The position numbers and the translations under genes were made by a program. The notes below the pieces were generated by a model. The model was not told the origin of the DNA, made no database searches, and was given only the letters and a program-made list of their open reading frames with translations. 42,222 nt of DNA from a virus. Shown here in pieces: positions 16,496-41,824 of the stretch. Location of the stretch: positions 1 to 42,222 of IMG/VR virus record IMGVR_UViG_3300023179_004872. One strand, written 5' to 3'. Every line of letters begins with the position of its first letter. Positions within the stretch are counted from its first letter, which is position 1.

Positions 16496-16572
16496 ATGGG
16501 TGTGTAGCTGAATGGTTAGGCAGCGGATTGCAAATCCGTATCATGCAGGTTCAAATCCTGTCACCCATTCCA
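16496..16572 (+). tRNA. tRNA-Cys(GCA)
   Basis: Acceptor ATGGGTG/CACCCAT is perfectly paired, discriminator is T as usual for tRNA-Cys, and CCA is encoded (16570-16572). Anticodon arm GCGGA-TTGCAAA-TCCGT gives GCA. T arm GCAGG-TTCAAAT-CCTGT. The D arm is odd: four nucleotides lie between acceptor and the GCTG of the D stem, so the exact 5' end may differ slightly. Confidence 0.85.
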
Positions 16573-16606
16573 TTGTAGTGCCGAAACAACAGATTGAAAA
16601 AAGATG

Positions 16607-16634
16607 TTGACAAATTTGTTGGTTGTGTTATAAT
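16607..16634 (+). promoter_or_regulatory. Promoter of the tRNA/structured-RNA cluster
   Basis: TTGACA (16607-16612), 16 bp, TATAAT (16629-16634) with TG one base upstream (extended -10), then the leader TTCCATAGATTGAGAAATCA. It lies after tRNA-Cys and 46 nt before tRNA-Glu, so it should drive Glu, both structured RNAs, Asp, Gln, Asn and His. Confidence 0.85.
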
Positions 16635-16680
16635 ACTTCCATAGATTGAGAAATCAATCATTGTTCTTTAAAATATAAAT

Positions 16681-16756
16681 GCTCGGTTCATCTAGCGGCC
16701 TAGGATAGTGCCCTTTCACGGCATTCACACCGGTTCAAATCCGGTACCGAGTACCA
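16681..16756 (+). tRNA. tRNA-Glu(TTC)
   Basis: Acceptor GCTCGGT/ACCGAGT (first pair G-T), anticodon arm GTGCC-CTTTCAC-GGCAT with TTC, T arm ACCGG-TTCAAAT-CCGGT, and encoded CCA. Its 3' end (16752-16756) is also the first part of the long stem of the following structured RNA. Confidence 0.93.
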
Positions 16757-16965
16757 TATTAAAATACATTGGGTTACCAATTCTAGTAGGTAACTTAGGA
16801 GCACTTGATGGCCGCATCATCTCGCTAAGTTTACATGAAGCCTTCCGATGGCGCTGGAATAAATTGGCAAGTAATGTGGAGATTGTCTTATCGGCAGACG
16901 AAGCCGTGAGAATCCAGATGAAGTTCTGGAACGACAATCACATCCTAATGTATTTTAATATGGTA
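16752..16965 (+). ncRNA. Structured RNA 1, closed by a 22-bp stem
   Basis: Strands 16752-16773 and 16944-16965 pair over 22 bp with only one G-U (16771/16946). Inside are further perfect stems: GTTACC/GGTAAC (16773-16778/16789-16794), AACTTAG/CTAAGTT (16792-16798/16835-16841 region) with GATG/CATC, GATTGTC/GACAATC (about 16881-16887/16933-16939) with CGGC/GCCG and CCAGA/TCTGG. No convincing reading frame. It directly follows tRNA-Glu. Comparable in position to the stable RNAs C and D in the T4 tRNA cluster (known), but no homology is claimed. Confidence 0.75.
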
Positions 16966-16966
16966 T

Positions 16967-17087
16967 CATTTGTTTTGCTGACGTAAGCCATGGGGGAAAC
17001 GTCAACCCTGAGTAACTGCGTACATAAACGGTAGTGTGGCCACCAATTCCGTTGAGCGTAGCAAATAGTGCGTCAGCAAAACAAATG
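16967..17087 (+). ncRNA. Structured RNA 2, closed by a 17-bp stem
   Basis: CATTTGTTTTGCTGACG (16967-16983) and CGTCAGCAAAACAAATG (17071-17087) form a perfect 17-bp stem that starts 1 nt after RNA 1 and ends on the first base of tRNA-Asp. Inside are GGGGGAAACGTCAACCC and AACGG/CCGTT hairpins, and AGCAAATAGTGC before the 3' strand. RNA 3 at 30354 has the same order: stem, GGGGGA, CGTCA, CCC, AATAGTGC, stem. Confidence 0.75.
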
Positions 17088-17161
17088 GTCTTATAGTATA
17101 GTGGTTAGTATAAAGGCTTGTCACGCCTTAGGCAGGAGTTCAATTCTCCTTGAGACCGCCA
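17087..17161 (+). tRNA. tRNA-Asp(GTC)
   Basis: Acceptor GGTCTTA/TGAGACC, anticodon loop TTGTCAC giving GTC, T arm with TTCAATT, discriminator G and encoded CCA (17159-17161). Confidence 0.93.
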
Positions 17162-17167
17162 AATTAT

Positions 17168-17241
17168 TCGGGAATAGTGTAATGGTAACACCGCAGACTT
17201 TGACTCTGTTATTCTAGGTTCAAGTCCTGGTTCCCGTGCCA
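17168..17241 (+). tRNA. tRNA-Gln(TTG)
   Basis: Acceptor TCGGGAA/TTCCCGT with an unpaired first position (T1-T72), D stem GTG/CAC, anticodon arm GCAGA-CTTTGAC-TCTGT with TTG, T arm with TTCAAGT, discriminator G and encoded CCA. A weak 1-72 pair is normal for tRNA-Gln recognition. Confidence 0.88.
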
Positions 17242-17248
17242 AATTTAT

Positions 17249-17324
17249 TCCCTGATAGCTCAGTCGGTAGAGCGACGGACTGTTAATCCGCAGGTCGGTG
17301 GTTCAAGCCCACCTCGGGGAGCCA
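17249..17324 (+). tRNA. tRNA-Asn(GTT)
   Basis: Acceptor TCCCTGA/TCGGGGA, D arm GCTC...GAGC, anticodon loop CTGTTAA giving GTT, T arm with TTCAAGC, discriminator G and encoded CCA (17322-17324). Confidence 0.95.
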
Positions 17325-17327
17325 AAT

Positions 17328-17402
17328 GCAGAAGTTAGTTTAGTGGTAAAACCTCGGATTGTGATTCCGATATCAAGGGTTCAATCCCCTTACTTCTGCC
17401 CA
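17328..17402 (+). tRNA. tRNA-His(GTG)
   Basis: Acceptor CAGAAGT/ACTTCTG with the extra G-1 at 17328 paired to C73 (17399), the hallmark of tRNA-His. D stem GTTT/AAAC, anticodon loop TTGTGAT giving GTG, CCA encoded (17400-17402). Confidence 0.93.
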
Positions 17403-29877: not shown

Positions 29878-29921
29878 ACATGATAAAAGTGCTTGACAAA
29901 ACTACCGACATGTGTTATAAT
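29853..29921 (+). promoter_or_regulatory. Promoter with upstream dyads (for 29953 gene)
   Basis: CACTTTTA/TAAAAGTG (29853-29860/29884-29891) enclose ATGTT-N5-AACAT, ending 1 bp before TTGACA (29893-29898); 17-bp spacer; perfect TATAAT (29916-29921) with extended TG. Dyad sequence differs from the TGTTG family but sits in the same place. Confidence 0.8.
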
Positions 29922-33238: not shown

Positions 33239-33548
33239 TTTTATTGATACTGAAACAGGTGAAGAATTTGACTCGTTTATGAAAATATCCGAGCGTGAGG
33301 AATTCTTAAAAGAAAACCCACATATTCAAACTGTATTAACAACACCAGCTATTGTTTCTGGTGTTGTTGGTACTGGTTCACTAAAAGTTCCTGATGGATT
33401 TAAAGAAGTATTATCTAAAGTGTCCGAGAAGCATAGAGGTTCACCTTTAGCTGAGAGATATAGTAAGAAATCTATTAGAGAAGCGAAAAACTCTGAAGTG
33501 GTTAAGAAGCATGTTGAGAGAGTTACAAAGAGATTACAAGGCCGATGA
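33225..33548 (+). CDS. Conserved T4-like phage protein (MPTY.F family, 107 aa)
   Basis: Start at ATG 33225, overlapping the preceding gene by 14 nt. MPTYSFIDTETGEEFDSFMK and VPDGFKEVLSKVSEKHRGSP, SKKSIREAKNSEVVKKHV match a family of T4-like phages distantly like the FmdB zinc-ribbon start, but without the zinc cysteines. Function unknown; usually beside the exonuclease gene, as here. Confidence 0.65.
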   Translation: MPTYSFIDTETGEEFDSFMKISEREEFLKENPHIQTVLTTPAIVSGVVGTGSLKVPDGFKEVLSKVSEKHRGSPLAERYSKKSIREAKNSEVVKKHVERVTKRLQGR

Positions 33549-34234
33549 ATTTAAAAACTTTCAATCATGTTAAAATACCTGAATTAAATTTTGAGTTAAA
33601 TGCTGTAACAACTGAAGGCGGCAGAAGGTATACAACACCGCAAGGAAATATTTACCCATCTATCACCACAGTCCTTTCTGAATATAGTAAAAAAGGAATT
33701 ATGGAATGGCGTGCTAAAGTTGGTAATGAAGAAGCCACTAGAATAAGTACAAAGGCTGCTCGCCGTGGTACCGCATTACATACAGTTTGTGAAAAGTATC
33801 TATTGAACCAAATTGATTTTCAATATAGTCAGTCATTAATGCCTGATACAAAGGAATTGTTTCTTCAATTAAAACCATACATTGATGATAATGTCGGTGA
33901 TGTATATGCTATTGAGCAATCTTTATATTCTGATTCATTACAAGTTGCTGGTCGTAATGATTGTATAGCTGAATGGAATGGTAAGATATCTGTAATTGAT
34001 TATAAAAGTGCATCTAAAGAAAAGAATGAAAATTGGATTCAAAACTATTTCATGCAATGTACCGCATATGCAATCATGTTTGAAGAGATAACTGGAAGAG
34101 CAATTGAGCAAATCGTTGTAGCAATAGCAGTTGCCGATGGTCAGTCTCAAATATTCGTGCGTAATAAAACTAAATACGTTCAACCATTGACTGAATTTGT
34201 CGGCAAATATCACGGCAAACTCTTGACATTATAA
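33545..34234 (+). CDS. PD-(D/E)XK exonuclease (Cas4/RecB-like)
   Basis: 229 residues. The nuclease motifs are in order: H79 (RRGTALHTVCE), E124 (YAIEQSLYS), D139 (VAGRNDCIAEW), D152-x-K154 (VIDYKSA) and a C-terminal QCTAYA helix. This is the conserved exonuclease of T4-like cyanophages and pelagiphages, presumably for recombination or host-DNA degradation. Its stop precedes the tmRNA promoter, whose -35 box overlaps its last codons. Confidence 0.85.
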   Translation: MNLKTFNHVKIPELNFELNAVTTEGGRRYTTPQGNIYPSITTVLSEYSKKGIMEWRAKVGNEEATRISTKAARRGTALHTVCEKYLLNQIDFQYSQSLMPDTKELFLQLKPYIDDNVGDVYAIEQSLYSDSLQVAGRNDCIAEWNGKISVIDYKSASKEKNENWIQNYFMQCTAYAIMFEEITGRAIEQIVVAIAVADGQSQIFVRNKTKYVQPLTEFVGKYHGKLLTL

Positions 34235-34251
34235 CATAATCGTGTTATAAT
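34223..34251 (+). promoter_or_regulatory. Consensus promoter of the tmRNA gene
   Basis: Perfect TTGACA (34223-34228), 17-bp spacer, perfect TATAAT (34246-34251) preceded by TG one base away. Predicted start at about 34258, just before the first hairpin of the acceptor piece. Confidence 0.9.
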
Positions 34252-34258
34252 CTTTGTT

Positions 34259-34550
34259 ATAGTTGTATGAAGCAACTAGAAAAGTGTTCTGGACGGGGGT
34301 GCGAATCCCCCCAGCTCCACCAAAAGCATATTCGGTATGCACATAGCATACAGAGACATAAGAAACGTGAATATGCTTTTGATGGGGCTGACCTAGATTT
34401 GACAGGGCAACAAGTATAGAAGTGGACAACTCACCAGAGTAGGTGTAAAAACTAAAAAAAAGTAACCGCAAACGACTCACAGTTTCGCATTGCAGCCTAA
34501 CCGCTGCTAGGGTTTCGGTTGGTTCACCTCGTAACAGAAGAACCAACCAC
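34259..34550 (+). ncRNA. ssrA: Circularly permuted (two-piece) tmRNA
   Basis: Order is reversed from standard tmRNA. Acceptor piece first: hairpin TAGTTG/CAACTA (34260-34278), T arm GGGGG-TGCGAAT-CCCCC (34295-34311), acceptor strand CAGCTCC (34312-34318), A, CCA (34320-34322). Then a 61-nt spacer. Then the coding piece from GGGGCTG (34384-34390), which pairs 7 bp with CAGCTCC, followed by ACCTAGATTTGACAGGGCAA, a CACC/GGTG hairpin, the tag frame 34468-34500 and a 9-bp terminal hairpin GGTTGGTTC/GAACCAACC (34517-34548). The spacer has a perfect 12-bp extension AAAAGCATATTC/GAATATGCTTTT. tmRNA rescues stalled ribosomes with SmpB; no smpB is seen here, so host SmpB is presumably used. Confidence 0.92.
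34468..34500 (+). other. tmRNA proteolysis-tag reading frame
   Basis: Resume codon GCA and frame to TAA encode ANDSQFRIAA (with the usual charged alanine, A-ANDSQFRIAA). The AND start is typical; the ending IAA instead of LAA/VAA is unusual and could change recognition by host ClpXP. Confidence 0.85.
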
Positions 34551-34573
34551 TATTAACAACAAGGAGTTTTATT

Positions 34574-35023
34574 TTGAAAAAAGTTTTATTTGCAACATTA
34601 GCCACTTTGGCTTTATCTGCATCAGCAATTGAAGTTGGTGTAAATGGTACACGGGATTATTCTGGTAGTGCCGACCGCACAGGTTATGGTGTTACTTTGG
34701 GTGAAAAATTTGGTGCTATCGGTGTTGAAGCCGGTTACACTCGTTTCGTTCAAGGCACAAATGACCAAGACCGTTATAGTTTAGTTGGTTCATATGATGT
34801 TACTAAAATTGGACCTGTTACTGTTGCAGTAAAAGGTGGCGTTGCATATTTGATGAATCAAACTGGTGCTGATGGTTATGCCGTTACTGCTGGTGTCGGT
34901 GGTTCTGTTCCTGTTGCCAAGAATTTGGCCGCAACGATTGATTGGCGCCGTCAAGAAGGTCAGAAAAGTGTAAATGCATTTGATGGTAATCAAGTTGCAG
35001 TTGGTTTGAAATACTCGTTTTAA
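34574..35023 (+). CDS. Outer-membrane beta-barrel protein (149 aa)
   Basis: TTG start with AAGGAG 7 nt upstream. Signal peptide 1-18 (MKKVLFATLATLALSASA); the mature 131 residues alternate polar/hydrophobic strands with GYGVTLGEKFGAIGVEAGYT, YSLVGSYDV, VAVGLKYSF and a terminal phenylalanine, the C-terminal signal for outer-membrane insertion. Looks like a small porin/OmpW- or OmpA-barrel-like protein of about eight strands. A phage copy may mask receptors or change permeability (inference). It follows the tmRNA directly and may share its transcript. Confidence 0.75.
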   Translation: MKKVLFATLATLALSASAIEVGVNGTRDYSGSADRTGYGVTLGEKFGAIGVEAGYTRFVQGTNDQDRYSLVGSYDVTKIGPVTVAVKGGVAYLMNQTGADGYAVTAGVGGSVPVAKNLAATIDWRRQEGQKSVNAFDGNQVAVGLKYSF

Positions 35024-36647: not shown

Positions 36648-36656
36648 TTGAGGGTA

Positions 36657-36680
36657 GTGGGACTTTGCGTCCCACTTTTA
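36657..36680 (+). terminator. Rho-independent terminator
   Basis: Perfect 7-bp stem GTGGGAC-tttgc-GTCCCAC followed by TTTTAA. Lies between the 93-aa gene and the SleB-like gene. Confidence 0.8.
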
Positions 36681-36698
36681 ACACACACAAGGAGAAAA

Positions 36699-37256
36699 AT
36701 GCGAAGTAAACCTATACTTTTAAGTTTATTTTTTTCAATGATAATTTTAACATTATCATATGCGAATGTTGACACATATAATATACTACCGATTAAATCA
36801 ACATACAATAATTTAACCGCTGATGCTAAAATACAAGTAACTTGTTTAGCAGAGAACATCTATTTTGAAGCGGCACACGAACCACTAGACGGCAAAAAAG
36901 CAGTAGCTTTTGTCACTTTGAATAGAGTTCAATCCGGCTATGCCGATAACATTTGTGATGTGGTTCAACAAAAAACAAAAAGCACTTGCCAATTTTCTTG
37001 GTATTGTGACACAACATTTACCTCTAGACGCTTGACAATCAAGCAGACTTCATTGTATAATGATATCTTAGAGTTATCAACAAATCTATTTTTAAACTTT
37101 GAAAGAATGAATGATGTAACTAATGGGGCAACCTATTATCACGCTGATTATGTTAACCCCAAATGGACAAGATTACAAAAGGAGACACAAATTGGCAGAC
37201 ATATTTTCTACAAGAGCAAAATTGACCAAATTGACCGAACAAAAGGAATCATTTGA
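36699..37256 (+). CDS. SleB-like cell-wall hydrolase (Hydrolase_2 family)
   Basis: 185 residues from ATG 36699 (AAGGAGAAAA). Residues 1-22 are a signal peptide or signal anchor. CLAENIYFEAAHEPLDGKKA (49-68) with E52 and E57, VAFVTLNRVQSGYADNICDV, CQFSWYCD and GATYYHADYVNPKWTRL are the conserved blocks of SleB/Hydrolase_2 peptidoglycan hydrolases. Probably the exported endolysin. A TTGACA-18-TATAAT sequence within the gene (37032-37061) could drive the downstream genes. Confidence 0.85.
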   Translation: MRSKPILLSLFFSMIILTLSYANVDTYNILPIKSTYNNLTADAKIQVTCLAENIYFEAAHEPLDGKKAVAFVTLNRVQSGYADNICDVVQQKTKSTCQFSWYCDTTFTSRRLTIKQTSLYNDILELSTNLFLNFERMNDVTNGATYYHADYVNPKWTRLQKETQIGRHIFYKSKIDQIDRTKGII

Positions 37257-37491: not shown

Positions 37492-37878
37492 ATGAAATAT
37501 GTGTTTAAACAAATAGATGATATCTCTGGCGCTAATGCAATAACTACTATTGAATTTAGTGCAGATTATCTTCCTGATATCTTAGAACATGTTGAAATGT
37601 TTCTCCGTGGTTCTGGTTATATTATATCAGGCAAATTAGATTTTGTTGATTATGAAGACCCATATACTACACCAAAATTTGAATGTGCTGAAGAAAACTA
37701 TGAAGATGAGGATGAGGAATTAGATGAATATACTCAAACTTTAATAGATGATGATGCATGGCCTTTTCCCAAAGAAAGACCACCTGAAGGAACAAAAACA
37801 GAACCATGGCCTGGTGTTGCACCATCTGTTTCAGCACAATATACGGTGACACCAATAAAAGATCCTAATGCCTACTAA
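37492..37878 (+). CDS. Conserved T4-like hypothetical protein (128 aa)
   Basis: ITTIEFSADYLPDILEHVEM and FLRGSGYIISGKLDFV form a globular N-terminus; the rest is acidic and proline-rich (DDDAWPFPKERPPEGTKTEP). Frequently found just before the gp33-like gene in related phages (recalled). Function unknown. Confidence 0.6.
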   Translation: MKYVFKQIDDISGANAITTIEFSADYLPDILEHVEMFLRGSGYIISGKLDFVDYEDPYTTPKFECAEENYEDEDEELDEYTQTLIDDDAWPFPKERPPEGTKTEPWPGVAPSVSAQYTVTPIKDPNAY

Positions 37879-38092
37879 AGAAGAAATGGCAAAATTTGCC
37901 AAAGCAATTGATAAGATAGTTTCTGAAACTAAATTTAATCATATTGAGGCAATCACAGAATATTGTAGCCAAACTGGATTGGAGATTGAGGTCGCAGCTA
38001 CATTAGTTAACTCTAACCTTAAATCTAAAATTCAGATGGATGCAATGGATAATAATATGTTGAAAGAAAAAGGTTCACGCCTTCCAATATGA
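37868..38092 (+). CDS. gp33-like late-transcription accessory protein
   Basis: 74 residues. MPTKEEMAKFAKAIDKIVSE, AITEYCSQTGLEIEVAATLV and LKSKIQMDAMDNNMLKEKGS RLPI fit the small proteins annotated as late promoter transcription accessory protein (T4 gp33 type) in cyano- and pelagiphages. gp33 bridges RNA polymerase and the sliding clamp at late promoters. It overlaps the preceding gene by 11 nt and gp59 by 4 nt, the usual context. Confidence 0.7.
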   Translation: MPTKEEMAKFAKAIDKIVSETKFNHIEAITEYCSQTGLEIEVAATLVNSNLKSKIQMDAMDNNMLKEKGSRLPI

Positions 38093-38679
38093 CAGGTTAT
38101 GAAGCGTTCTCAATTTATAATTCTCTGAAACTTCACTTCTCACAGCAATCATACGATTACTTTAAGTACAATGGTAAATCAAATATAACGATTACCAGTT
38201 TTGAGAATCGTAAAGACAAATACCACTTTTATAAACTCTCAAGGAAATATAATCAAGAGGATTATATTAATTTCCTTGTGGGTAACTTTATTCTCAATGA
38301 AAAAACTTGGGCAGGTGACTTGTTGAAACCTGAAGCAGAGGCAAATTACCTAAGAAGAATGAAATACTTGCAATCCATGACATATAGTTTTGAGACTGAG
38401 TGCAAGTATATCTTTGATGATTTAGATGATCCAAACGATGTTCTGAAGAGTTTGGATGACGATTATCCAGTTCTTCTATTGATGGCTTTTAGGAAAGAAA
38501 TACAACCTGAGACACTTGTTATGTTAAATGCCTTACTCAACTTCTTTCCCGCTTGGACAAAACAAATAACAGAAACTATCCGTTGGCCAGATTATCGGTT
38601 AAGAATGCTCAAGTATGCCTCATTTGTGCCATTTGATAGTGTAAAATATAGGCTGAAGTTGAAAGAGGTGATATCATAA
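38089..38679 (+). CDS. 59: gp59-like helicase loader
   Basis: 196 residues. MTGYEAFSIYNSLKLHFSQQ SYDYFKYNGK and ENRKDKYHFYKLSRKY are diagnostic of T4 gp59, which loads gp41 helicase on gp32-coated DNA. The C-terminal domain (LMAFRKEIQPETLVMLNALL; FPAWTKQITETIRWPDYRLR) also matches. Located next to gp32 and gp33, as in T4. Confidence 0.93.
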   Translation: MTGYEAFSIYNSLKLHFSQQSYDYFKYNGKSNITITSFENRKDKYHFYKLSRKYNQEDYINFLVGNFILNEKTWAGDLLKPEAEANYLRRMKYLQSMTYSFETECKYIFDDLDDPNDVLKSLDDDYPVLLLMAFRKEIQPETLVMLNALLNFFPAWTKQITETIRWPDYRLRMLKYASFVPFDSVKYRLKLKEVIS

Positions 38680-38785: not shown

Positions 38786-39670
38786 ATGAATAGTTTTGCA
38801 AATCTCAAGCGTGGCCGTTCTGACCTCGCTAAACTCACCAAAGCAATTGAAGCTTCTGGCCAGTCCAGTTCTGAGGCTGGTTCTAAAGATGATACAAGAA
38901 TGTGGCAACCCAGCGTTGACAAGTCTGGTAATGGTATGGCCGTAATTCGGTTTCTACCTGCACCTGCTGTTGATGGTGATGATGCTCTTCCTTGGGTTCG
39001 CACATTCAGTCACGGCTTTCAGGGACCTGGTGGTTGGTTCATTGATAACTGCCTCACAACTCTTAATGAGAAGTGTCCAGTTTGTGAACACAACAATACA
39101 TTATGGAATTCTGGTATTGAAGCAAATAAAGATGTAGCTCGTAAGCAAAAGCGTAAGCTTTCTTATCTCGCTAATGTCCTTATTGTTTCTGACCCTAGCA
39201 ATCCAGAAAATGAAGGTCAAATCAAACTGTTTAAGTTTGGTAAGAAAATCTTTGATAAGATTACTGAAGCAATGAATCCAGAATTTGCTGATGAAACTCC
39301 TGTCAATCCATTTGACTTATGGGAAGGTGCTAACTTCAAGTTGAAGATTCGTAATGTTGAAGGCTATCGTAATTACGATAAGTCCGAGTTTGCTGATAAA
39401 TCGGCACTCTTAGATGGTGATGATGCTAAACTGGAAGAATTGTGGAAGAAAGAATTCTCTCTGAAGGAATTCACAGAGAAGAAACAATTCAAACCTTATG
39501 ACCAACTCAAGTCTCGCCTTGATAAGGTTCTAGGTTTTGAAGGTGCAGTATCTTCTATTAAAGCTGAAGATGTTGTATTGAGAAACTTTACTGATGATGA
39601 AGTCAAGATTCTTGATAAAGCAGTCGTTGAAGATGATTTAGATTACTTTAAATCTCTCGCAGAAAAATAA
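38786..39670 (+). CDS. 32: gp32-like single-stranded DNA-binding protein
   Basis: 294 residues. Zinc ligands have nearly T4 spacing: H76, C89, C97 and C100 (FSHGFQG...NCLTTLNEKCPVC). N-terminal FANLKRGRSDLAKLTKAIEA corresponds to the cooperativity (LAST-type) region and the C-terminus is acidic. Coats replicating DNA and recruits gp59 and RNase H. The 106-nt gap upstream holds AT-rich sequence with CATAAATA (38708) and TATACT-like boxes, but no clear promoter. Confidence 0.95.
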   Translation: MNSFANLKRGRSDLAKLTKAIEASGQSSSEAGSKDDTRMWQPSVDKSGNGMAVIRFLPAPAVDGDDALPWVRTFSHGFQGPGGWFIDNCLTTLNEKCPVCEHNNTLWNSGIEANKDVARKQKRKLSYLANVLIVSDPSNPENEGQIKLFKFGKKIFDKITEAMNPEFADETPVNPFDLWEGANFKLKIRNVEGYRNYDKSEFADKSALLDGDDAKLEELWKKEFSLKEFTEKKQFKPYDQLKSRLDKVLGFEGAVSSIKAEDVVLRNFTDDEVKILDKAVVEDDLDYFKSLAEK

Positions 39671-39715: not shown

Positions 39716-41824
39716 TTATAGAGCCTGAGTACGAACAAGGTTACTATAAAAATCACTATGATAAGGTGTTGATTTAGAAGTGGATACAACTTGATTCATT
39801 CCACTTCCACTAGAAGAACCAGATGTTTTCGGACCACCTATTACTGACAATATATCTGCCATATCAGCTGATGAGAATACAGGTTTACTTGCTGCAGCGG
39901 ACTCTTTAGCTGCACTTGCTGTAGCTACAGCTGGACCACTAATTTTTGGTGAAGCTGGTGAAACTGATGGTGTTGATTCTCCATAACCAGTAAAAGATCC
40001 ATTAGCAGCATCATACTGAGCTACCATAGTAGAATCTGATCCACCACCTGTGCCAGGTTTATATTCTGCCAACGCTTGAGCAGCATATTTCATTCTAACG
40101 GGTTCAACAGTCTGGGGTCTTTCAAATTTTGTAGCAAAAATATTTGCAGCTTCTTCAGCTGTTTGTGCTCCACGTAATTCTTTTCCACCCAAAGATGAAT
40201 CTGTGTTTAGTTCATGCATAAGATAATCTAATTGCATTTTAGGATCACCTAAATCTTTTCCTTGACTAGAAGCGTAAGCTGCTAGTTTTTGCAATCTTCC
40301 TGCTTTCGCATTCCATTGAGCAAGACCATATGAATTTTCTTTGCTATTCTCGTTATGTGCTCCACTTTTTAAACCAGATTCTTGAACAAGATTACCAACC
40401 ACACCAGCTGCTTGTGCTGGAGTTAGTCCATGTTTTTTTACCAAATAGTCAATTGCTTCATTACTACTAATTGAACCGCCTTTTGGTAAATCAACTTTAG
40501 CTGGTGTAGTACTTGCTGATGTGGATGTTGCACCACGTATTGGTGATGAAGTTGGTGTTGTGGATGCTGGTGTTACTCCAGTAATATTTCCATTTGCATC
40601 AAAACCTCCACTAACATCTGTTGTTTGAGAAGGTGATTTGCTTTCAGAATCTTTTGATTCTTCTTTGGAATATTCTGTCCATAATTCATATATTTCATAT
40701 GCTGTCCAAAATGAAAAACCTAATTGAACAGCAGCTGCAATCCAACCAAGAACTGGTATAGCAGCTAAAGCGCCAGCAGCTGCAAGTCTTGCACCGAATT
40801 TTGCAAATAATTTTGGAGCTTTTCTTTCAAGAAAGGCTAAAAATTTTCCCCATTTGGATGTTGGAGTTGCACCTTTATATGAAATATTTGATGGTGTTGT
40901 TCTAGCATCTAATATTGCTGATGATGTTTGTTTAGTAGCTGTAACCAGTTTAGAACCAGCACTAACAGCACTTCCAGCTGCAAGAGCACCACCAACACCA
41001 GCAGCTGTGTTAACCGCAGTTTGGCCAAGATTTGAATTATTTGATTCAGTTCCTGGTTCACCACCTTGATTAGGTGCACCTGGTGTTCCAGCATTAGCAG
41101 ATTTAGTGGCAGCAAGAGCAATTCCAGCTAATCCTAAAAGTCTTCCTATTGGACTTTTAATAAAAAAAGTAAGTATTGTTCCAAATACAGCACCAAGTCC
41201 TAAAACTGCAGCACTTAAAGTTGCAAAAACACCAGAAATTGAACCAATACTACTTATAATTGATCCAACAGTTGATGCTATTCCAGTAATTAATGATCCA
41301 AGAAAACTTAAAATTCCAGAACCAGATTTTTCTTTGCTTTCTACTTTAGTTGGTTGTTTATTTCCTGCTTTAAATTGAGATTCATATGCATTTTCTCTAA
41401 AGCTTGCATCTTTAAAAAAAGCATCTGGTCCTTTTGATTTCTTACCAGTCATATATTGTGTCAAATTACCAATATTCTTTTGCATCATATTCATTTGTTT
41501 AGCCATTGCAGGCAATGCCATAGAATTTTTTGCAGTTATTTTGCTATTTGTATTGATATCTTGGAGTATAGAAGATGAATCGGATGTAAGAGAAGATGGT
41601 GATGTTGTTTGAGAAGCACTAGAAACATCATTCTTTCTTGTAGCCGAATAACCTTTACCAAAGATTTTTGTGCCAATGACTGAGCCAATTCCACCACCAC
41701 TAAAAAGTGCGTTGCGTATATCTAACTTTTCTAAGGATCTTTTACCAAAAGTTGAAGCGGCGCCACTAAAAACACCTTTTGTTTTATACTCTTGTTGTAA
41801 TATATTTGCGAGTCTGCTAGCCAT
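39716..41824 (-). CDS. Baseplate-hub/tail protein with phage-type lysozyme domain
   Basis: 702 residues. N-terminal ~160 residues are low-complexity and Ser-rich. Hydrophobic, Gly/Ala/Ser-rich segments at about 168-245 resemble tape-measure-like or membrane-inserting helices. From about 450 to 590 is a phage tail lysozyme domain (SSNEAIDYLVKKHGLTPAQA, AGVVGNLVQESGLKSGAHNE, SYGLAQWNAKAGRLQKL, ANIFATKFERPQ) with catalytic glutamate in NLVQESGL. The tail is again low-complexity. It likely opens peptidoglycan at DNA entry. Follows the gp26-type genes, as in other T4-like phages. Confidence 0.78.
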   Translation of the reverse strand: MASRLANILQQEYKTKGVFSGAASTFGKRSLEKLDIRNALFSGGGIGSVIGTKIFGKGYSATRKNDVSSASQTTSPSSLTSDSSSILQDINTNSKITAKNSMALPAMAKQMNMMQKNIGNLTQYMTGKKSKGPDAFFKDASFRENAYESQFKAGNKQPTKVESKEKSGSGILSFLGSLITGIASTVGSIISSIGSISGVFATLSAAVLGLGAVFGTILTFFIKSPIGRLLGLAGIALAATKSANAGTPGAPNQGGEPGTESNNSNLGQTAVNTAAGVGGALAAGSAVSAGSKLVTATKQTSSAILDARTTPSNISYKGATPTSKWGKFLAFLERKAPKLFAKFGARLAAAGALAAIPVLGWIAAAVQLGFSFWTAYEIYELWTEYSKEESKDSESKSPSQTTDVSGGFDANGNITGVTPASTTPTSSPIRGATSTSASTTPAKVDLPKGGSISSNEAIDYLVKKHGLTPAQAAGVVGNLVQESGLKSGAHNENSKENSYGLAQWNAKAGRLQKLAAYASSQGKDLGDPKMQLDYLMHELNTDSSLGGKELRGAQTAEEAANIFATKFERPQTVEPVRMKYAAQALAEYKPGTGGGSDSTMVAQYDAANGSFTGYGESTPSVSPASPKISGPAVATASAAKESAAASKPVFSSADMADILSVIGGPKTSGSSSGSGMNQVVSTSKSTPYHSDFYSNLVRTQAL

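Follow-up and report, generated by a model that had tools for sequence, protein, structure and literature searches.

A predicted two-piece, beta-type tmRNA gene of a T4-like myophage and its relatives in viral contigs

Phage-encoded two-piece tmRNAs

In a study published in 2022, two-piece tmRNAs made up 53 of the 133 distinct tmRNA structures found in 402 phages, and the OM43 phage Melnitz was described as having one (PMC9004378). A beta-class tmRNA has been reported in the Stenotrophomonas phage Marzo and is said to resemble one listed for S. maltophilia (PMC8928761). The first-pass annotation of the DNA studied here (the window, an IMG/VR virus record of 42,222 bases) held a phage copy in permuted order to be unusual, but the class is a known one (PMC9004378) and is well represented in viral contigs. 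Pattern scans of IMG/VR followed by ARAGORN yielded permuted tmRNAs in at least 168 viral-contig loci among the matches listed (numbered within L001-L261 and viral by IMG/VR classification); a few of the ARAGORN calls are doubtful and some loci overlap, the conservative figure being more than 150 loci, and since the loci were picked by tmRNA patterns, their number is uninformative on frequency. The window tmRNA is another instance of the phage two-piece tmRNA already known from aquatic phages.

The window carries one permuted tmRNA gene on the + strand, at about 34258-34555. An Rfam cmscan matched RF04321 (tmRNA_permuted) at 34261-34500 over the full length of the model (positions 1-213 of 213) with 121.6 bits (cut-off 47, E 2e-23), a score lower than the 143-155 bits of some relatives. 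RF01850 (beta_tmRNA) matched at 34209-34555 with 121.0 bits (cut-off 84, E 2e-36) and was the best of its clan at this place, overlapping clan matches scoring lower; it is by these Rfam scores only that the gene is assigned to the beta type. ARAGORN also called a permuted tmRNA, with the tag ANDSQFRIAA. The first-pass annotation, which had read the locus as a permuted tmRNA encoded by the phage, with a tag of its own, and had suggested a covariance search as a check, was borne out by the two models, both above cut-off, and by ARAGORN; its coordinates were correct, the 61-nt spacer was exact, and the order that it described, with the acceptor half (CAGCTCC-ACCA) before the coding half (GGGGCTG), is read directly in the sequence.

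The locus can be compared with three described systems. The betaproteobacterial permuted tmRNA (RF01850) shares with it the gene order, the acceptor and tag pieces and a match over the full model; the window differs by a G55 that occurs with A18 in the D-loop, by a spacer of 61 nt that is longer than that of the model (about 30 nt), and by having no terminal hairpin to match the last helix of the model. The ssrA of Melnitz (MZ577097; PMC9004378) is likewise a permuted two-piece tmRNA of a T4-like phage, a member of the Kyanoviridae, and lies at an equivalent place, with the exonuclease gene upstream and gp33, gp59 and gp32 downstream. It is unlike the window gene in scoring as alpha_tmRNA, in its tag ANDNYVPVDYALAA and in the glutamine riboswitch just downstream; Rfam cmscan gave no riboswitch match in the window. 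The Stenotrophomonas Menderavirus phages (Marzo, Bhz51 and Mendera; PMC8928761) are also T4-like and have a permuted tmRNA matching RF01850, whose tag VAANDDSYTVRIAA ends in RIAA as does that of the window. Their gene, unlike that of the window, lies within a tRNA cluster near the ribonucleotide reductase and not beside the exonuclease, and only about 73 nt of the two tmRNAs align by blastn, with 79.5% identity. Permuted tmRNAs were seen in phages of gammaproteobacterial hosts, namely Stenotrophomonas phage Bhz51 (L002) and Xanthomonas phage Rb1 (L003), the record of the latter containing the tmRNA without annotation. These hosts themselves generally have a tmRNA of the standard one-piece form, although, as noted, the Marzo tmRNA is said to resemble one listed for S. 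maltophilia.

Anatomy and conservation of the gene

The features of the gene and of its neighbourhood are collected in Table 1, in which the 5' end of the acceptor piece, about 34258, was placed from the promoter spacing.

Table 1. Features of the tmRNA gene and neighbouring genes in the window
Feature	Position	Strand	Basis
PD-(D/E)XK exonuclease, T4-like, upstream neighbour	33545-34234	+	phrog_298, E 2e-70; PF12705
Sigma-70 promoter, TTGACA-17 nt-TATAAT, TG before -10	34223-34251	+	12/12 consensus
Acceptor piece: 5' strand of the helix joining the pieces, T arm, CAGCTCC, ACCA	34258-34322	+	RF04321 and RF01850 alignments
T stem-loop, GGGGG-TGCGAAT-CCCCC	34295-34311	+	sequence
Acceptor 3' strand, CAGCTCC	34312-34318	+	sequence
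ACCA	34319-34322	+	sequence
Intervening spacer, 61 nt, inner hairpin, GAU end just before G1	34323-34383	+	fold
Coding piece: acceptor 5' strand, D-loop, helix, tag region, 3' hairpin	34384-34555	+	RF01850 alignment to 34555
Acceptor 5' strand, GGGGCTG	34384-34390	+	sequence
D-loop ACCTAGATTTGAC, UUUGAC variant of the usual UUCGAC, A18-G19	34391-34403	+	sequence
Tag frame ANDSQFRIAA, resume codon GCA at 34468, stop TAA at 34498-34500	34468-34500	+	ARAGORN
3' hairpin, GGTTGGTTC / GAACCAACC around CCTCGTAACAGAA	34517-34548	+	stem conserved in related loci
Small outer-membrane-like protein, signal peptide, next gene downstream	34574-35023	+	sequence appearance only
Cell-wall hydrolase, conserved downstream block	36648-37256	+	PF07486, E 1e-19
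gp33-like late-transcription coactivator	37868-38092	+	PF16805, E 3e-17; phrog_254
gp59 helicase loader	38089-38679	+	PF08993 and PF08994
gp32 single-strand DNA-binding protein	38786-39670	+	PF08804, E 6e-48; phrog_224

The acceptor stem formed by GGGGCTG and CAGCTCC contains a G3:U70 pair, the alanine identity element, and the CCA end is present. Across distinct tmRNAs of the related loci the two strands of this stem covary, the combinations being GGGGGTG/CACCTCC (40 tmRNAs), GGGGATG/CATCTCC (27) and GGGGCTG/CAGCTCC (24). A second covariation links the loops. The T-loop of the window has G at position 55, TGCGAAT replacing TTCGANT, and its D-loop stretch CTGACCTAGATTTGACAGGGCAA (UUUGAC) recurs in a single other IMG/VR contig, which contains L004 and L227. 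Among 92 distinct tmRNAs, 50 combine G55 with A18 and 35 combine U55 with G18; the remaining 7 are ambiguous in the D-loop alignment, and there is no clear exception. On sequence evidence, this pattern is a clean tertiary covariation at the contact between D-loop and T-loop in permuted phage tmRNAs, and we found no description of it in a limited literature search.

The first-pass annotation had also described a perfect 12-bp extension of the acceptor stem by the ends of the spacer. The 12 pairs are real in the fold (34322-34333 with 34369-34380), but the extension is not seamless, as the final A of CCA takes part in the spacer stem and ACC opposite GAU separates this stem from the acceptor stem. 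At least 8 closing pairs are found in 92 of 97 distinct spacers, with a mean of 12.3 against 3.4 in base-shuffled spacers, and 78 of 95 related spacers end in GAT. With GAU before G1, the predicted RNase P site has A(-2)U(-1) as its leader dinucleotide, with A(-2) opposite C74. In E. coli this dinucleotide is the optimal one for RNase P, and pairing of the leader with RCCA slows the enzyme (PMC9433436); the spacer stem therefore seems to join the halves but to leave the cleavage site within an open loop.

RNAalifold gave a weak result for the coding piece (-2.5 kcal/mol, 10 pairs), because MAFFT misplaced the gaps of the 3' hairpin and pseudoknots are beyond the model. The 3' hairpin was assessed by a direct count of stems instead, which gave 51 distinct stem versions in related loci, 46 of them of at least 6 bp.

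The consensus promoter noticed upstream of the gene in the first pass was confirmed, and it overlaps the 3' end of the exonuclease ORF. The exact TTGACA-17-TATAAT arrangement has two copies in the 42-kb window (the second at 29893-29921, + strand); with one mismatch allowed, 4 are found in the window against about 1 expected in shuffles. Matches of at least 11/12 lie upstream of 31 of 95 distinct phage tmRNAs as against 5 of 600 random 85-nt windows, an enrichment of about 40-fold, and the hexamers of the window are also present in L004-L007. Taken together, the spacer-closing stem, the promoter, the 3' stem versions and the D-loop/T-loop covariation indicate a selected, and presumably working, RNA.

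Genomic neighbourhood and differences between alleles

Judging by the neighbouring genes, the carrier is a T4-like myophage. When the exonuclease and gp32 are compared with those of annotated phages, the nearest ones belong mostly to the Kyanoviridae and related groups, among them cyanophages, phage C48C1 and Melnitz. Of the 168 loci with a tmRNA, 103 have a relative of the exonuclease, usually upstream of the tmRNA, and relatives of the downstream genes are found in 108 (cell-wall hydrolase), 101 (gp33), 95 (gp59) and 74 (gp32) of them, the typical order in T4-like loci being exonuclease, tmRNA, cell-wall hydrolase, gp33, gp59 and gp32. The window tmRNA is of the Melnitz kind, lying in a T4-like phage within the exonuclease-gp33-gp59-gp32 neighbourhood; as this neighbourhood is shared even with the alpha-type Melnitz, the tmRNA site appears to be old and common to these phages. 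The small protein encoded next to the tmRNA gave no match in PHROGs and Pfam searches and has relatives in 21 of the 168 loci. Elsewhere in the window, six clustered tRNA genes (Cys, Glu, Asp, Gln, Asn, His) lie at 16496-17402, and a tail protein with a Phage_lysozyme2 domain is encoded at 39716-41824 on the minus strand, against the direction of most of the window.

The window and L004, whose exonucleases are 98% identical, are the same across the acceptor piece, the spacer and the first 82 nt of the coding piece, and differ from about the resume codon on, the tag half of L004 being 93% identical to that of L151. The exonucleases of L005 and L006 are 92% and 88% identical to that of the window, and the 5' stretch of their coding piece was not among the blastn matches listed; L211 has an exonuclease only 39% identical, yet its 5' stretch of the coding piece matches at 91%. 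This mismatch between the identities of the tmRNA halves and those of the exonucleases suggests that tmRNA alleles are exchanged at a fixed site. Homing-endonuclease-like ORFs are located downstream of the tmRNA on the opposite strand in three loci (L250:5460-5900, L235:4-342 and L004:6001-6306 (minus)); that of L250 matches phrog_314 (E 5e-12), and Pfam gave no name to these ORFs. We propose, tentatively, that alleles, and separately the tag-bearing 3' half, may pass between distantly related phages, perhaps by means of such neighbours, so that degradation tags would in effect be traded. Swapping of tmRNA alleles between phages, tag half included, is possibly a new detail.

Proposed function and competing interpretations

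The window very probably contains an intact two-piece beta-type tmRNA gene of a T4-like myophage that acts in ribosome rescue during infection. The first-pass annotation had gone further, suggesting that ribosome rescue, or what becomes of tagged proteins, is redirected by the phage. The window tag does end in RIAA, the commonest end being ALAA (65 of 92 distinct permuted tmRNAs), tags are more variable than the RNA core, and nearly identical phages carry different ones (ANDSQFRIAA in the window, ANDESYRIAA in L004), as might be expected if host proteases read the tag differently and its products were spared or redirected. However, the features of an ordinary tag are retained, namely the AND start, the aromatic residue at position 6 and the AA end (the ANDxx[FY]xxAA layout); the IAA end is conservative and rare (5 of the 92), most relatives having ordinary LAA tags (80), and the change between the window and L004 accompanies a swap of the whole 3' half and is not aimed at the tag. 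As the replacement of L by I is conservative and the AND...AA layout normal, there is no evidence for a new tag fate; the suggestion is unsupported and such a fate improbable.

The complete tag frame with its stop, the resume-codon context and the 3' hairpin, all kept across the family, would be needless for a decoy that takes up SmpB and blocks host trans-translation, the role suggested for the tRNA-like molecule of mycobacteriophage DS6A, which has no tag. Such a role would be in line with the unusual D-loop of the window and with the strong inhibition of tmRNA by a phage tmRNA that has the tRNA-like domain only (PMC4131195, PMC11915505), but it was rejected because of the complete tag frame, and we regard it as very improbable. 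The gene could also be a passenger or a decaying host-derived copy, left for example by imprecise excision or at an integration site, ssrA being a frequent integration site for mobile elements (PMC11915505). Its place in a conserved T4-like locus in most of the 168 tmRNA-bearing loci and the maintenance of its pairings by compensatory change make this origin very improbable, as does the T-arm motif of the phage group, for which a scan of 84,980 bacterial and archaeal species genomes gave 0 matches, a result that bears on the exact motif only. A second genome scan also gave 0 matches but is uninformative, since its gap of 40-70 nt probably exceeds the spacer length in bacteria (about 30 nt in the RF01850 model); a plasmid scan in search of the host gave no match. 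A pseudogene reading was rejected, the pairings being retained.

For a tmRNA active in ribosome rescue, the simplest reading would be that the phage adds trans-translation capacity that works with the SmpB, EF-Tu and alanyl-tRNA synthetase of the host. No SmpB gene was found in the window or in 14 related and comparison records (several of 140-180 kb, and some perhaps fragments) by a search that was positive in 10 of 14 control genomes, so that the tmRNA would depend on host SmpB; 13 of these 15 records have one permuted tmRNA each. Host sigma-70 polymerase would transcribe the gene early from its own promoter, RNase P would cut at the conserved A(-2)U(-1)|G1 junction, and the spacer would be removed while the two pieces stay paired. 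Once charged by host alanyl-tRNA synthetase through G3:U70, the tmRNA, aided by the SmpB and EF-Tu of the host, would release ribosomes that have stalled on mRNAs that are broken or lack a stop codon, and the addition of ANDSQFRIAA would direct the products to host proteases. The likely gain is that ribosomes are kept available and incomplete proteins cleared during mRNA degradation.

With the window gene, the two-piece tmRNAs of phages gain a well-preserved member of the beta type. The comparison of more than 150 loci points to selection maintaining such genes in T4-like phages, and this speaks for a benefit of trans-translation in infection. With predicted maturation sites, a promoter and a tag now defined, the role of this tmRNA for the phage can be tested.
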